Source of the DNA: Methanomassiliicoccaceae archaeon
GTDB taxonomy: Archaea > Thermoplasmatota > Thermoplasmata > Methanomassiliicoccales > Methanomethylophilaceae
Length of the DNA: 59,239 nucleotides
Direction: 5' to 3'
NCBI GenBank assembly: GCA_003557905.1
Contig: PWNH01000089.1
Coordinates: 1 to 59,239 of the forward strand
Under the pieces are notes generated by a model. It did not search any database, was not told where the DNA came from, and saw only the letters and a program-made list of their open reading frames with translations. This document shows, one piece after another, positions 32,652 to 39,696 of the stretch; positions within the stretch are counted from its first letter, which is position 1, and every line of letters begins with the position of its first letter. The translations under genes and the position numbers were made by a program.

Positions 32652-35249
32652 TCAGAGCTCTATAGCCACCAAAACATCTCCTACCTGCACGGTCTCGACC
32701 TCGCGGCCGTGCAGCATGAGACTCTTCTCGAGCTCGACGTGCTCTGGACCTATCTCCAGGCCGTCGATGCTCACCTTTCCCTTTGAAAGGGATTCGGCCA
32801 GTGTCTGGGGGTCCATACTCTTGATGGCCTCGACGACCTTCTTCGCGTCCGCCTTGAACTCCGGGCCGATTCGGGAATGTACCGGTTTTGCGGCCACGAC
32901 CCTCTCCTCCAGCTCAGCGGCGGTTACGACACGCAGATCCTTGGCCTTCAGTGTACCCATGACATCAGCCTCATGTCCTATGAGCACGGAAGCCTTCTCA
33001 CCGATGAGTTCCAAAGACGCTATCTCCTGGTTGAGCGGCATCTTGTTGTTGGCCTTCCAGCTGCGGACAGACGAGATGATGTCCCTCATCATCTCACCGA
33101 TCTCCACCGCCTCAGGGTCGAGGGGGTAGGTCTCCGGCCAGGGGCTGATATGGATGCTGCGGTGTCCCTCATGGACCTGGAAATGGGTCTGGAAGGCCTC
33201 CTCGGTCACATGGGGCATGAACGGCGCCAATATCTTGATCAATCCCAGATAGGCGGTGTAGAGGGTGTACCGTACCGCATCGTCATCCCGGTGCTTGACC
33301 ATCTCTATGTAATGGTCCGCGAATTCGTGCCAAGCGAAGTTCTCGATCTCACGCATGGCCTTGTCGAACTGATATGATGCGAACATGCGGTCGACGTTAT
33401 CCGCAGTCTCGCTGAAACGACTCAGGATCCAACGGTCGGCAGCTGGCAGCTCTGCGGGGCGTTGCGGTCTGCTATCTATCTTACGGGCCACAAAATTACC
33501 CATGTTGAATATCTTGTTGATGAGCCTCTTTCCGCGTTTGACATCCTTCTCGCGGAAGGCATGGTCCACCCCCAGGGAGCAGGTGCAGGCGTAATAACGC
33601 ATGGCATCGGCACCGTACTCCTCCAATATCGGCATGGGGTCGATGACGTTGCCCAGCGAGGAGTGCATGGGTGTTCCGTCGGGGGACATGATGAAACCAT
33701 GGACCATTATGTCCTTCCAGGGTATGCTGTCTGTGAGCTGATGCGAACGCAGAAGGGTGTAGAAGGCCCATGTCCGTATGATGTCATGGGACTGCGGACG
33801 CATGGACATCGGGTACAGTTTCTTGAAGAGCTCCTCGTCCCTCTCCCAGAAACAGTTGTACATGGCCGATCCGGAGGAATCCATCCAGGTGTCGAAGACA
33901 TCCTCGCATCCCACCAGCTCCCCGCCGCAATCAGGGCATGAGCTCTGGGGCGGTTCATCCACGGTCGGGTCAACGTAGCACTGGTCCTCCTCAGCCGCGA
34001 CAACATGGCCGCAACCCACGCACTCCCATATGGGGATGGGGGTGGCGAATATGCGCTGTCGCGATATGACCCAATCCCATTCCAGTGAGTCCACCCAGTC
34101 CTTCAGTCTGATCTTCATGAACTCCGGGAACCAATCGACATCATCAGCACGTTTGAGGACCTCCTCCTTGAACTCCAGGGTCTTCAGGAACCATTGGGGC
34201 ACCTGTAGGTACTCGATGGTCTCATGACAACGCCAGCATACGGAGAGGTTCTGGTCCTGTGCTTCCTGGGAATCGAGTTTCCCGTCCGCTCCCAAGTCGG
34301 TGATGACAGCCGAACGGGCCTCTTTCACGGTCATGCCGCTGTAAGGTCCAGCGATATCGGTCATACGCCCTCCCTCGTCGATACCCTTCTCCAATGGGAG
34401 GTTGTACTTCATCACCCATTCCAGGTCCACCTTGTCGCCGATGGTGCATATCATGACCGTCCCGGTTCCGTATTCAGGGTCGACCTTCTCGTCGGCGATG
34501 ACCTTGACCTTCTTACCGTACAGAGGTGTGACCAGCTCCTTGCCCACCAGGTCGGCCTTGGATGCATCCTTGGGATGAACGGCGACGGCCTGACAGGTGC
34601 ATATCAGTTCCGGTCTCGTTGTGGCTATCATCACATGGCGGTCCTCGCCGTCCACGCCGAAGCGTATGTAGTTCAGCTTGGTGACGTTGTCGCGGTACTC
34701 GACCTCAGCGTCGGCAAGAGCGGTCATGCAACGGGGGCACCAATTGACCGGATAGTCCCCTTTGTAGGCCAATCCCATCTTGAGCAGCCTGAGGAATGAT
34801 ATCTGGGTTATCCTGCGGTAATAGGGGGCGTCAGTCTGATAGTAGATGCTAGGGTCCATACTCTGACCCAATATCTCGAAATGGTGCGTCATCTCCTCAA
34901 TGAAGCCGTTGGCGTATTCCGAGCATAAGCGGCGGTACTCGCCCCGGGGGAGGTCGAGTTTGGTGATCCCGTGCTTCTTCTCAACCTTTACCTCCGTGGG
35001 TGTACCGTTGACATCGAAGCAAAGGGGGTAGAAGACGTTGTAACCCTTCATCCGGTGATAGCGGGCGGCGAAATCGATCAGTGAGTAACCGGTCGCATGG
35101 CCGAGATGCAATGAGCCGGAGGTGTAACGGGGAGGATTGTCTATACTGTAAATAGGGCGGTCGGAGTCCTGGTCGAAATGGTGTATCTCCCATTCCTTCC
35201 ATTTCCCCTGCCAATTCCTCTCGGTGGATAGGGAATCATATTGCGACAT
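32652..35249 (-). CDS. valS: valyl-tRNA synthetase with degenerate KMSKS
   Basis: Class I synthetase that charges tRNA-Val. The HIGH motif is HLGH at residues 48-51. An editing domain with CP1-type segments (MIATTRPELICTC), two zinc-like CxxC pairs (CVGCG, CPDCGG) and an anticodon-binding domain with WILSRFSETADNVDRMF follow. I start at ATG 35249 (865 residues); the upstream in-frame extension (49 residues) is meaningless. At the KMSKS position the sequence is TPMHSSLGNVIDP, with M528-H529-S530-S531, so the lysine normally important for transition-state stabilisation is missing. The remainder of the motif context (GNVIDPMPILEEYGADAMRYY) is intact, so the enzyme is probably functional, but see the findings. 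Confidence 0.93.
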   Translation of the reverse strand: MSQYDSLSTERNWQGKWKEWEIHHFDQDSDRPIYSIDNPPRYTSGSLHLGHATGYSLIDFAARYHRMKGYNVFYPLCFDVNGTPTEVKVEKKHGITKLDLPRGEYRRLCSEYANGFIEEMTHHFEILGQSMDPSIYYQTDAPYYRRITQISFLRLLKMGLAYKGDYPVNWCPRCMTALADAEVEYRDNVTKLNYIRFGVDGEDRHVMIATTRPELICTCQAVAVHPKDASKADLVGKELVTPLYGKKVKVIADEKVDPEYGTGTVMICTIGDKVDLEWVMKYNLPLEKGIDEGGRMTDIAGPYSGMTVKEARSAVITDLGADGKLDSQEAQDQNLSVCWRCHETIEYLQVPQWFLKTLEFKEEVLKRADDVDWFPEFMKIRLKDWVDSLEWDWVISRQRIFATPIPIWECVGCGHVVAAEEDQCYVDPTVDEPPQSSCPDCGGELVGCEDVFDTWMDSSGSAMYNCFWERDEELFKKLYPMSMRPQSHDIIRTWAFYTLLRSHQLTDSIPWKDIMVHGFIMSPDGTPMHSSLGNVIDPMPILEEYGADAMRYYACTCSLGVDHAFREKDVKRGKRLINKIFNMGNFVARKIDSRPQRPAELPAADRWILSRFSETADNVDRMFASYQFDKAMREIENFAWHEFADHYIEMVKHRDDDAVRYTLYTAYLGLIKILAPFMPHVTEEAFQTHFQVHEGHRSIHISPWPETYPLDPEAVEIGEMMRDIISSVRSWKANNKMPLNQEIASLELIGEKASVLIGHEADVMGTLKAKDLRVVTAAELEERVVAAKPVHSRIGPEFKADAKKVVEAIKSMDPQTLAESLSKGKVSIDGLEIGPEHVELEKSLMLHGREVETVQVGDVLVAIEL

Positions 35250-35293: not shown

Positions 35294-36475
35294 TCAGCGT
35301 GTCCGCTTGCGGTGGTCTATCCGCTGTTCCTTGGTGTCGTTCACCATGCCCATGAGCTTCTTCATCAGCTCCTCGGTGGTGCGGACCAGGTCCCAATCGA
35401 CAGCCTTGGCGCTGAACAGCTTACCCCCGGCGGTGAGACGGCCCGCGAGGCTGTACTTTGCCGATGAACCCTCGGAGTTGTACTTCGAAACATGCATGAC
35501 GAAGGTCTGGGGCTGGTAGATCCTGGCAATCTTCGCCAGCTCGTTCCCTATCTCCTTGTCCAGGGCGGGCATGAAGTAACGGTCCTCGTCCTCCAGGCCA
35601 GTTATCTGCACGAAGACGACATCCCTCTCACGGCAGGCGGCCATCAGCTCGATTATGTCGTAGCGGGTGATGATGCCCACGAGCCTACCTTCCTCCACGA
35701 CCGGCAATGTAGATATGTCGTTATCGGCCATCAGGGTGGCGGCCTTCCCGAGGTCGTCCTCCCATCCTATCGTCATGGGGTTCTCAACACACAGGGACTC
35801 CACCTTTAGTTCGACAGGCGTCTTGATGCCTGTCAACTCACCGACCGTCTGGCGGTTCTTCTCGCGGTAGTTGTAGTCGATGACCTCCCTCATGCCGATA
35901 ATGCCGAAGACCCCATCGTTCTCGTCGAGAACAGGGATGGTCCTGATGTCAAGACGCCTCATGATGTCCATGGCGTCCTCCAGCTTGTCACCGGGATATA
36001 CAGCGTCAACGACGTTGCTCATTATCTCCCAGACCTTGATCTCCTTGAGCTGGCGAATCGTCGCCACCCACTTGACCAGATCAGCCCGGGAAATGATGCC
36101 GATGACGCGGTTGCCCTTGACGACCGGAAGTTGCCGGGCGTTGCTGGACATCATGTGCTCCGCAACCTCCGTCAGCGGTGTGCTGAGTTCAATGGTCGGG
36201 ACGCTTGTCATCAACGTCTTGGCCTTGGTCTCCAATGAGAGGCTCTTCCTCTTCATCACATTCCCGTAGGAGACCATCCCCAGGAACTTCCCCCCGTCAA
36301 TCACGGGTATCTCGTGGAGCTTCGAAGCGCGCATGATCGACAGGATGTCGACCAATTCATCTTCGGGCTTAACCGCCTCGAAGTTCCCATCCATGTTCTC
36401 TTCAACCGTCTTGGAGTCGATCTGCGAGCGCAGAATCGACAGTTGCTTAAGGTCCTCTAGATCCATGGCTCCCAT
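35294..36475 (-). CDS. four-CBS protein with HPF/RaiA-like C-terminal domain
   Basis: A 393-residue protein. Four CBS repeats lie at roughly 26-80, 86-140, 148-205 and 228-285; they usually bind adenine nucleotides or S-adenosylmethionine in pairs. The last 100 residues (from about 290) include YSLAGRLTAGGKLFSAKAVDWDLVRTTEELM, cut here to its key part AVDWDLVRTTEELM, which recalls the two-helix end of the ribosome hibernation factor HPF/RaiA. The resemblance is by eye only. The ATG 36475 has AGGTG eight bases upstream. The gene lies 45 bases upstream of valS start on the same strand, so a translation-linked role is plausible. Confidence 0.75.
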   Translation of the reverse strand: MGAMDLEDLKQLSILRSQIDSKTVEENMDGNFEAVKPEDELVDILSIMRASKLHEIPVIDGGKFLGMVSYGNVMKRKSLSLETKAKTLMTSVPTIELSTPLTEVAEHMMSSNARQLPVVKGNRVIGIISRADLVKWVATIRQLKEIKVWEIMSNVVDAVYPGDKLEDAMDIMRRLDIRTIPVLDENDGVFGIIGMREVIDYNYREKNRQTVGELTGIKTPVELKVESLCVENPMTIGWEDDLGKAATLMADNDISTLPVVEEGRLVGIITRYDIIELMAACRERDVVFVQITGLEDEDRYFMPALDKEIGNELAKIARIYQPQTFVMHVSKYNSEGSSAKYSLAGRLTAGGKLFSAKAVDWDLVRTTEELMKKLMGMVNDTKEQRIDHRKRTR

Positions 36476-36686
36476 CTGATAACACCTTTCTAATTACTAT
36501 TCATCGTACAGGTTCTTAACGGTAATGGGTGAAACGGGCCGATGAGCCGTAACACATGACCGCCATAGGACAATCTTATGAAACGACTGTTTTTCCAGCC
36601 GTTCCTCGAACAGTCCTACGAAGGGTTTATGTACCTTATCGAATGAGCGATTCAATAAATAAATCATGATATTCGTATTGAAACGG

Positions 36687-38384
36687 TCAAAGAGATGCGA
36701 AATCCACACCTTTGATGAGTTTTTGCACAACATCGATGATATCGTCTATCGGAATCCTCCGTTGTTCGGAACTGTCGCGGTCACGGATGGTGACCGTGTC
36801 CTTCAAACCCCTGTCGTCCTCTAAGGTCTCATAATCAACCGTGACACACCAGGGGGTGCCGACCTCGTCCATGCGTGCATACCGTTTACCGATCGAACCC
36901 GAGTCATCGTAGTAGGCGTCGATGCCGGCATCGTTCAGCGTACGGAATAACTCCCGCGCCTTAGTGTCCAGTCCGTCACGTGTCATCAATGGGAAGACGC
37001 CCACCTTGATCGGGGCGACCTCCGGCCTCAATGACAGCACTGTGTATTCATCGTCACGTCTGTACGCATGCTCCAATATGGTGTAGAATATCCGGTCAAG
37101 CCCATGGGATGGTTCGATGACATGAGGAACGACCTTCTCACCCGAGACCTTCTCGTTGATCGTCACAGCCTCGAAGAGGTTGTCCGTGATATCGAGTGTG
37201 CGACCATTGAAATCCACCTTGAGCACGCTGTTCTCGATATCCGCGGGAGTCCGTTCCTCTATAAGGCGGGCTATCTCCTTGGCATCGCCTTTGAACAGGG
37301 GTCCGAGTTCACGGTACTTGGCCTTGATGGCCTCCCGCTCGACCTCCTTGGGCTCATCGAAACGCTTGAAATGACTCATCTCCTGCTTAGACCATTTGGC
37401 ATGCTGGGTTAGGTCCCAGCATCCCCGGTCCGCAATACCGACTATCTCCGTCCAACCATATGACAGGAGGACCTCTGCGTCCCAACAGTCCATGGCATAA
37501 TGGGCCATCTCGTCACGGAGGTGCTGCCGGAACCGCAGTCTTTCGCCATCCACTCCCAGTCTCGTCAACAGGTCCTTGGTGAACCAGATGAAATAGGCCA
37601 GGACCTCGTTGGCTATTATACCTCCGGAAACCGCCTCATCCACAGTGATGGAACGTTCCCGCCCGTCCTCAGGCACCAAGCGCAACATCTCATCCCTGAT
37701 GGCAGGATAACGGACCCATCCCTTGTCCTCGGGATCAACGAACAGTTCAACCTCCATCATGTTGAACTCCCTGAGTCTGATTATCCCCTGTCGCGGGGAT
37801 ATCTCATTGCGGTATCCGCGTCCGTGCTGGATCACTCCCAAGGGGAGCTTCTCGCGGTTGTAGCGGTAAAGATGGGGGAAGTTGACGAATATCCCTTGCG
37901 CCGTCTCGGGACGAAGATAGCCGACCCGTGATGACCCCGGACCGATGGTGGTCTTGAACATCAGATTGAACTCCTCGACCTCGCCGAGTTCACCATCGCA
38001 GTCCGGACACAGTACGCCGTTCTCCACGAACAGTGATTTCAAACCTTCAGCGTCAAGCGTGTCAGGGTTGGGATGGAGGTCACCGACCAGATGGTCAGCG
38101 CGGAATGGTTCCTTGCAACCTTGGCAGTAGACGACGAAGTCCGAGAACTCGTCGATGTGCCCGGATGCTTTGAAGACCGGCTCAGGGTTCACCGTTTCGG
38201 AGTCTATCTCCACGAAGCCCTCGCCTCTCTTGTAGGCGTCGCGCCACATCGAGATGATGTTGTCCTTGAGCACGGTGCCCAATGGGCCGTAGTCGTACAT
38301 ACCGGCCACTCCGCCGTAGATCTCGAAGGAGGGCCAGATGAAGCCACGTCTCTTACACAGTGAAAGGAGTTCACCTGCATTCAT
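36687..38384 (-). CDS. glyS: glycyl-tRNA synthetase
   Basis: Class II synthetase of the homodimer type found in archaea and eukaryotes, charging tRNA-Gly. Motif 1 region FIWPSFEIYGGVAGMYDYGPLG, cut to its core EIYGGVAGMYDYGPLG, is at the N-terminus; motif 2 is QHGRGYRNEISPRQG and RLREFNMMEVELF follows. Motif 3 is in PSHGLDRIFYTILEHAYRR. A zinc knuckle with CQGC and CPDC lies between. The length (565 residues) is usual. I choose ATG 38384; a TTG at 38402 overlaps the stop of the upstream CBS gene and is also possible. Upstream genes on the same strand are the CBS protein, uspA and an amidohydrolase. Confidence 0.95.
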   Translation of the reverse strand: MNAGELLSLCKRRGFIWPSFEIYGGVAGMYDYGPLGTVLKDNIISMWRDAYKRGEGFVEIDSETVNPEPVFKASGHIDEFSDFVVYCQGCKEPFRADHLVGDLHPNPDTLDAEGLKSLFVENGVLCPDCDGELGEVEEFNLMFKTTIGPGSSRVGYLRPETAQGIFVNFPHLYRYNREKLPLGVIQHGRGYRNEISPRQGIIRLREFNMMEVELFVDPEDKGWVRYPAIRDEMLRLVPEDGRERSITVDEAVSGGIIANEVLAYFIWFTKDLLTRLGVDGERLRFRQHLRDEMAHYAMDCWDAEVLLSYGWTEIVGIADRGCWDLTQHAKWSKQEMSHFKRFDEPKEVEREAIKAKYRELGPLFKGDAKEIARLIEERTPADIENSVLKVDFNGRTLDITDNLFEAVTINEKVSGEKVVPHVIEPSHGLDRIFYTILEHAYRRDDEYTVLSLRPEVAPIKVGVFPLMTRDGLDTKARELFRTLNDAGIDAYYDDSGSIGKRYARMDEVGTPWCVTVDYETLEDDRGLKDTVTIRDRDSSEQRRIPIDDIIDVVQKLIKGVDFASL

Positions 38385-38398
38385 CTGTAAGGCCCCGT

Positions 38399-39247
38399 TC
38401 AATCCATCAGAAGGGCGTTTATGACATCAAGGTCATAGATCATGCCCAGTAACCGGTCCTTGTTGTCGCGGATGGGGAGCTGACCGAAGTCGTTCCTCTT
38501 CATTATGCCCGCAGCTTCCGAGACCGAACTCTTCTTGAACAACGTCGACGGATCCTTGACCATAAGGTCGCGGACGAACGCATCCGGCAGGTCCACCTTG
38601 GAGACCTCGTAGAAGAGGGGCATGACGTTCCTCAGGCCCTCCCACGACCATTCGTCCTCGTCAGGCCCTATGCCCAGTTCGGATTTTGCGACCTTGTCCT
38701 TTATCAGAGCCTTGTTGAAAAGATCCCTGTCGGTGATGAGGCCTACGATGTCCCCGTTGGAGTTCAAGACCGGTAAAGCATTCATATTGGTGAGGCGGAA
38801 GACCGTCTGAACGTATTTCAGGGGGTCCCCCTCCCAAAGTGGCACACAGGTCTTTCTTATGAGATTCTCCACCGGAATCTGCAGATTCCTTTTTTTGACC
38901 TCTTTGAGAAGGTCGGTGGGTGTGACTATGCCAACCAACATACCGTCGTCAACCACCGGCAGACGGTGGATGTTGTTATCCACCAGGATGCGGGCGGCCT
39001 CCTCGATTTCGGCATCGGGTCCGATGACCAGGACGTCCTTCTTCATCAGAAGGGACAATTGGTCCTCTTCGGGGTTATTGTAGATGTCCTTACGGGATAT
39101 TATCCCTGCCAGGCGCCCATCGCTAGCCCTGACCACTGGCATTCCGGTTAGGTTGTGCTTGACCATCATGGTCAAGACCTCGCTTCGGCTGCCTGGTACG
39201 ATGGCGACAATTGGGTTACTGACCATCACATCAGAGACTTTTGTCAT
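38399..39247 (-). CDS. four-CBS domain protein
   Basis: A 282-residue protein built almost only of CBS repeats, near residues 5-55, 67-118, 128-180 and 222-280. CBS tandem pairs sense adenine nucleotides or SAM and usually regulate a partner protein; no partner domain is fused here. It begins one base before the uspA stop (TAATG), so it is translationally coupled to uspA, and it ends 15 bases before the glyS ATG. Confidence 0.85.
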   Translation of the reverse strand: MTKVSDVMVSNPIVAIVPGSRSEVLTMMVKHNLTGMPVVRASDGRLAGIISRKDIYNNPEEDQLSLLMKKDVLVIGPDAEIEEAARILVDNNIHRLPVVDDGMLVGIVTPTDLLKEVKKRNLQIPVENLIRKTCVPLWEGDPLKYVQTVFRLTNMNALPVLNSNGDIVGLITDRDLFNKALIKDKVAKSELGIGPDEDEWSWEGLRNVMPLFYEVSKVDLPDAFVRDLMVKDPSTLFKKSSVSEAAGIMKRNDFGQLPIRDNKDRLLGMIYDLDVINALLMD

Positions 39248-39696
39248 TAAGCCGCATCCTCCTTGGCTCTGACCACCATAACTGGACAGGATGCGTGGCG
39301 GACAACCTTCTCCGCCACACTGCCCATCATAAGCTTGGAGAGGCCCCCTCTTCCCAGGGTCCCCATCACTATGAGGTCGAAGTCCTTGGATGCATCGATG
39401 ATCTTCTTGACCGGGGATCCCTCATCGATTTTCATTTCGACTTCGACCCCCATCTCTTCTCCCATTCTCTTGACGTAGTCCACAGCTTCCTTGCCCTCGT
39501 CCTCTAGCAGAGAGTATATGCTCAAGGTGGTGGCGTCCATAGGCACGTTTACGAACGCGGTCTGATCTAGGATGTAGTAAGCGCTGACCTTGGCGTCCAG
39601 GGCCTTGGCCAGCATCAGACCCTTCTTGACGGCCTGTTTGGTGTATTCGCTACCGTCGGTGGGTATCATAATTTTCTTGAATGCCATTTTGCCCAT
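39247..39696 (-). CDS. universal stress protein, UspA family
   Basis: A 149-residue alpha/beta protein of the UspA family. N-terminal KKIMIPTDGSEYTKQA is typical, and the ATP-binding loop is GTLGRGGLSKLMMGSVAEKVVRHASCPVMVV (core GTLGRGGLSKLMMGSVAEK). Family members bind ATP or dimerise around nucleotide and are induced by stress. It follows the amidohydrolase by seven bases, and a GAGGAGGAG stretch overlaps the region just before the ATG. A second ATG at 39687 with the same motif at better distance is an alternative start. Confidence 0.92.
   Translation of the reverse strand: MGKMAFKKIMIPTDGSEYTKQAVKKGLMLAKALDAKVSAYYILDQTAFVNVPMDATTLSIYSLLEDEGKEAVDYVKRMGEEMGVEVEMKIDEGSPVKKIIDASKDFDLIVMGTLGRGGLSKLMMGSVAEKVVRHASCPVMVVRAKEDAA

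Follow-up and report, generated by a model that had tools for sequence, protein, structure and literature searches.

The hibA locus and its product

The window analysed here is the whole stretch of 59,239 nucleotides of contig PWNH01000089.1 (GenBank assembly GCA_003557905.1) from an archaeon of the order Methanomassiliicoccales, family Methanomethylophilaceae, and the gene in question is hibA, located at positions 35294..36475 on the minus strand and encoding a HibA-family ribosome hibernation factor of 393 residues. The open reading frame extends from an ATG start to a TGA stop with zero internal stops, and the coordinates and account of it in a preliminary description of the window were right to within a base. 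The product consists of a module of four CBS repeats (residues 22-282; 35630..36412, minus strand) and a C-terminal domain of the HPF/RaiA fold (residues 283-393; 35297..35629, minus strand). Within the CBS module, a segment between CBS3 and CBS4 (residues 203-221, YREKNRQTVGELTGIKTPV; 35813..35869, minus strand) aligns with the peptidyl transferase centre (PTC) loop of HibA from Pyrococcus abyssi. Full-length orthologues with 39-96% identity were found throughout the Methanomassiliicoccales, and hibA is thus not a chance reading frame. The nearest named orthologue (96% identical) is encoded in the metagenome-assembled genome CSBr16_211, labelled Candidatus Methanomethylophilaceae. The window's genome carries one copy of hibA; in a survey of the phylum, 94 of 196 sampled genomes had a match at an E-value of at most 1e-30, and a scan of viral contigs (viral_contigs) yielded no relative.

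Identification as HibA

The HibA family, which 47% of archaeal genomes possess, was published in April 2026 as an archaeal hibernation factor combining four CBS repeats with an HPF/RaiA domain (Madru et al., Nat Commun 2026, PMC13324472). Its P. abyssi representative is Q9UYR4 (PDB 9SR9, 9SRA-9SRF, 9T7H), with 9SR9 being the HibA-ATP structure according to the data statement (PMC13324472). An order-level profile was built from an alignment of 29 full-length orthologues of the window protein and compared with the PDB sequences. The best of all chains was P. abyssi HibA (9SR9 chain H; 154.9 bits, E-value 2.5e-44), with residues 22-389 of the window protein aligned to residues 4-379, so that the two proteins are collinear over their full length, as expected of a member of the HibA family. 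The PDB sequence file labels this chain “Dehydrogenase”, a name that could lead annotators astray. Searches of the full protein against Pfam and NCBIfam returned CBS or CBS-containing models only, none of them over its NCBIfam cut-off.

Pfam CBS matched the window protein in four stretches (E-value 3.9e-43), which together with the structural model gives the four tandem CBS repeats typical of HibA. After removal of the C-terminal domain, the CBS-only profile still found HibA as its best PDB match (135.5 bits, in register from 2-254 to 5-261), ahead of MJ1225 (118.3 bits), the CBS-containing ribosome factors of Methanosarcina acetivorans (at most 112.5 bits), and Dri (89.6 bits). Among ribosome-binding CBS modules, that of the window protein is therefore nearest to HibA's by profile score.

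The C-terminal domain

AlphaFold2 predicted the full protein with a predicted local distance difference test score (pLDDT) of 86 and a predicted template modelling score of 0.84. The modelled C-terminus comprises a strand (288-292), a helix (296-316), three strands (322-332, 340-349, 352-360), and a helix (363-392), which corresponds to the HPF/RaiA topology. As only CBS modules were among the matches listed when the whole model was searched with Foldseek, the C-terminal domain was modelled (pLDDT 88) and searched on its own. The 27 best PDB matches of this isolated model were all HPF, RaiA, protein Y, MPY/RafH, or chloroplast PSRP1 (best E-value 6.6e-7; query-normalised TM-scores 0.48-0.70). 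The PDB copy used for the fold search ends at 2026-04-08, and HibA entries were absent among the matches listed; HibA was hence identified via sequence.

A profile of the C-terminal domain, compared with the PDB sequences, had Psychrobacter RaiA (8rd8_D) as its first match (E-value 0.0014). Pfam PF02482 (Ribosomal_S30AE) gave no match to the window protein, and because this model misses the domain, no single database match on the window protein names it. The same model was found at a loose cut-off in the C-terminal domains of seven of 16 family members (best E-value 5.3e-5), and two relatives surpassed its gathering cut-off. Judged by the profile of the family and by the structure prediction, the C-terminal domain is clearly of the HPF/RaiA type. 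The preliminary description had read the protein as four CBS repeats followed by an HPF/RaiA-like tail, and both parts were borne out; the structure prediction it had proposed for the C-terminus was run, and an unrelated fold was not obtained, since the predicted topology, the 27 best Foldseek matches, the C-terminal profile, and the PF02482 matches in relatives all pointed to HPF/RaiA.

HibA proteins carry two archaeal-specific insertions in the HPF/RaiA domain; in the profile alignment with P. abyssi HibA, the C-terminal domain of the window protein agrees in its lengths, with one-residue gaps only. Conserved C-terminal residues, counted over 106 orthologues and paralogues from the order, are Q290 and G293 (106 sequences each), R284 (105), K340 (103), and K382 (100). 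When the whole genomes of 61 relatives were searched, PF02482 matched at the hibA loci and nowhere else, giving no sign of a separate HPF gene. In the window's genome (assembly about 86% complete), hibA is apparently the sole gene of the HPF/RaiA type.

Gene neighbourhood and upstream region

Gene order was compared across 80 named loci, with counts given per testable loci. The common order is amidohydrolase, uspA, CM-3/HhpR-like gene, glyS, hibA and, in part of the loci, valS, often with a DEAD helicase beyond. In the window, glyS (glycine--tRNA ligase; 36687..38402, minus strand; TIGR00389, 676.5 bits) lies upstream of hibA, as it does immediately before the gene in 75 of 76 loci. Two genes upstream, a stand-alone four-CBS protein related to HhpR of the CM-3 family is encoded (38399..39247, minus strand); it matches the NCBIfam HhpR model NF053603 along its entire length, though with 158.4 bits where the curated cut-off is 520, as well as PDB 2yzq (PH1780; E-value 9.4e-38), and a gene of this type precedes hibA in 61/62 loci. 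The next conserved neighbour (39247..39696, minus strand) is a putative universal stress protein of the UspA type, a name that stems from reading the sequence; NCBIfam gave no match to it at an E-value of at most 1e-20.

Downstream, valS (valine--tRNA ligase; 32652..35249, minus strand; NF009687, 920.8 bits) starts 44 bases after the hibA stop. The preliminary description had placed it 45 bases away and taken its proximity as a sign of a role in translation: the adjacency is real, the gap is one base shorter, and the argument is weak. A valS start within 400 bases of hibA occurs in only 38 of the 62 testable loci, and set against glyS and the CM-3-like gene, valS is the less meaningful neighbour; its adjacency is incidental and was rejected as support for a role in translation.

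The 211-base interval between glyS and hibA (36476..36686, minus strand) contains the blocks ACATAAACCCTTCG, CCCATTAccGTTAAGAAC, and GGTGTTATcAGATGGGA, which are conserved in an alignment of six relatives and are candidate promoter elements and a ribosome binding site; ACATAAACCCTTCG and CCCATTAccGTTAAGAAC perhaps represent one or two hibA promoters. An inverted repeat around GGACTGTT...AACAGTC is also present in this interval of the window and is not conserved in the relatives. In the region upstream of hibA, Rfam detected no RNA element; its one match was a tRNA farther off.

hibA paralogues

Tandem hibA pairs occur at nine of the 80 loci, mostly at loci labelled Methanomassiliicoccus or near it; a pair is listed for L042, L043, L046, L049, L101, L114-L116, L118, L120-L122, and L127 of the Methanomassiliicoccus group. 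Within one locus the two copies share about 50% identity, but a copy can be as much as 97% identical to its counterpart in a different genome, which argues that the duplication is old and has been maintained. One Methanomassiliicoccaceae genome (G025) contains a further, more diverged tandem HibA-like pair (L041:6924-9416), located away from the glyS-valS locus, besides a normal hibA.

Proposed function and alternative readings

HibA of P. abyssi attaches to 70S ribosomes, and it inhibits translation in vitro; for this protein and its counterpart in Thermococcus barophilus, ribosome binding, inhibition of translation, and preservation of 70S ribosomes have all been reported (PMC13324472). The C-terminal domain of HibA is located in the mRNA/tRNA channel of the 30S subunit, its CBS module takes three positions on the 50S subunit (PTC, uL5, and L1 stalk), and deletion of T. 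barophilus HibA lowered stationary-phase 70S ribosomes by about 60% and lengthened the lag (PMC13324472). Being an orthologue of HibA, the window protein most likely acts in the same way. Its HPF/RaiA domain would plug the 30S mRNA/tRNA channel, and the tethered four-CBS module would take up unoccupied tRNA sites of the 50S subunit, i.e., the A/P region, the vicinity of uL5, or the E site and L1 stalk, so that idle 70S ribosomes may be kept silent and resistant to degradation until mRNA and tRNA compete HibA off. Overall, we hold it very probable that the protein is the HibA orthologue of this Methanomethylophilaceae archaeon, with the hibernation role that homology suggests. The present analysis establishes the architecture, the fold, and the orthology, and we infer ribosome binding, translation inhibition, and 70S preservation from the orthologue; the preliminary description was thus right in reading a ribosome factor, with binding itself established for P. 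abyssi HibA.

Some points weigh against this assignment. The C-terminal-only profile does not recover the C-terminus of P. abyssi HibA even at an E-value of 10, and the orthology of this domain consequently rests on fold and collinearity. The insertion between CBS3 and CBS4 (GELTGIKTPVELKV, aligned to the long PTC loop GELAGEKIPPFSMKL of P. abyssi HibA) lies in a region that is poorly predicted (AlphaFold2 pLDDT 53-70), shorter in many relatives, and variable in length within the order. Ribosome-binding data for a member of the Methanomassiliicoccales were not found in the literature consulted.

The role of the nucleotide-sensing repeats is less firm. The CBS4 T-x-x-D motif, of the type expected at a nucleotide site, ranks among the most conserved positions (T270 in 103/106 and D273 in 106/106 of the orthologues and paralogues), and the CBS module of P. 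abyssi HibA binds AMP in preference to ADP and ATP (dissociation constants of 12 uM, 65 uM, and 113 uM, respectively; PMC13324472). From both, the window protein may well bind AMP at its CBS3/CBS4 interface; of the AMP/ATP sensing claimed for it in the preliminary description, nucleotide binding is supported for the orthologue only. These same two observations count against the best of the alternatives, that the CBS module is a structural plug only, drawn from an older ribosome-binding CBS family, with vestigial nucleotide binding. This alternative is consistent with the stand-alone CBS proteins SriA-SriD and Dri seen on archaeal ribosomes and with the published view that conservation lies mostly in the CBS core, from which the authors favour site occupation over specific contacts (PMC13324472), and we regard it as a serious though lesser possibility.

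Somewhat less probable is an adenylate-gated HibA that is off or sequestered at low AMP and released to bind the ribosome at high AMP, i.e., a direct switch from energy to translation. The conserved motif and the affinities just given speak for it, as does the HibA authors' view that nucleotide-controlled sequestration is possible (PMC13324472). However, AMP or ATP had no clear effect on how P. abyssi HibA bound the ribosome or on how its conformations were distributed: at 5 mM, binding was unaltered and so were the conformations, save for a minor extra state with ATP, and native HibA-ribosome complexes held no nucleotide (PMC13324472). Gating by AMP/ATP is therefore unproven even for P. abyssi HibA, and the link between energy and translation drawn in the preliminary description is not established.

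It is highly improbable that the protein is a CBS-domain regulator, of an enzyme or transcription kind, that has nothing to do with ribosomes and resembles HPF at its C-terminus only by chance: Pfam leaves the C-terminal domain of the window protein unnamed, and the four-CBS protein encoded nearby is a relative of the transcription regulator HhpR, but the fold result already contradicts such a reading, and the profile search, the PF02482 matches in relatives, and the collinearity with HibA concur.

The HibA paper assigns HhpR to CM-3, which is viewed as probably uninvolved in hibernation (PMC13324472), so that for the CM-3-like neighbour a regulatory role is more likely than that of a second plug. 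A far more speculative extension, to which we give little credence, is that HibA and this neighbour form a conserved set in which the neighbour, as another adenylate sensor, would govern either the expression of hibA or the loading of HibA on ribosomes and so let the energy state gate hibernation, the two long-separated Methanomassiliicoccus paralogues having divided the task.

Comparison with known systems

The window protein is an ordinary member of the HibA family and thus a known kind of protein, as family, architecture, and mechanism are already published. The HibA paper does not name the Methanomassiliicoccales in its main text (PMC13324472). HibA extends to gut and sediment methanogens of this order, as confirmed from sequence alone. 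The conserved link of hibA to glyS and an HhpR-like CBS gene, and the tandem pair of Methanomassiliicoccus, are small leads on the regulation of hibernation. Some members of the order are mesophilic and cultured, which could permit HibA to be tested outside the hyperthermophilic Thermococcales.

Bacterial HPF/RaiA (protein Y, PF02482) has the fold of the C-terminal domain in common with the window protein, whereas it lacks a CBS module and its sequence similarity is marginal, as seen in the profile match to 8rd8_D. A long HPF (lHPF) was ruled out, as the modelled chain ends at the HPF/RaiA helix and Pfam gave no match to the C-terminal dimerisation domain. HhpR/CM-3 proteins (P. yayanosii HhpR; PH1780, PDB 2YZQ) likewise contain four CBS repeats but belong to a transcription-regulator family without an HPF/RaiA domain and are distinct from the window's HibA. 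SriA-SriD of M. acetivorans (PDB 9ZNF, 9ZNG, 9ZNI; no paper on them was found in the literature) are CBS-domain proteins on the archaeal 70S ribosome with chains of 270-339 residues, which matched over their CBS part only and had no HPF/RaiA match. Dri (Pyrobaculum calidifontis, PDB 9E6Q/9E7F) also uses CBS modules for binding the archaeal ribosome, yet it has two fused CBS modules, no HPF/RaiA domain, and a profile score below that of HibA; Dri was ruled out for the window protein, in which Pfam and Foldseek found one CBS module plus an HPF/RaiA domain. Compared with P. abyssi HibA, its closest counterpart, the window protein has about 20 additional N-terminal residues modelled as a helix, the sequences have diverged, most of all in the C-terminal domain, and the CBS3-CBS4 loop varies among the Methanomassiliicoccales relatives.
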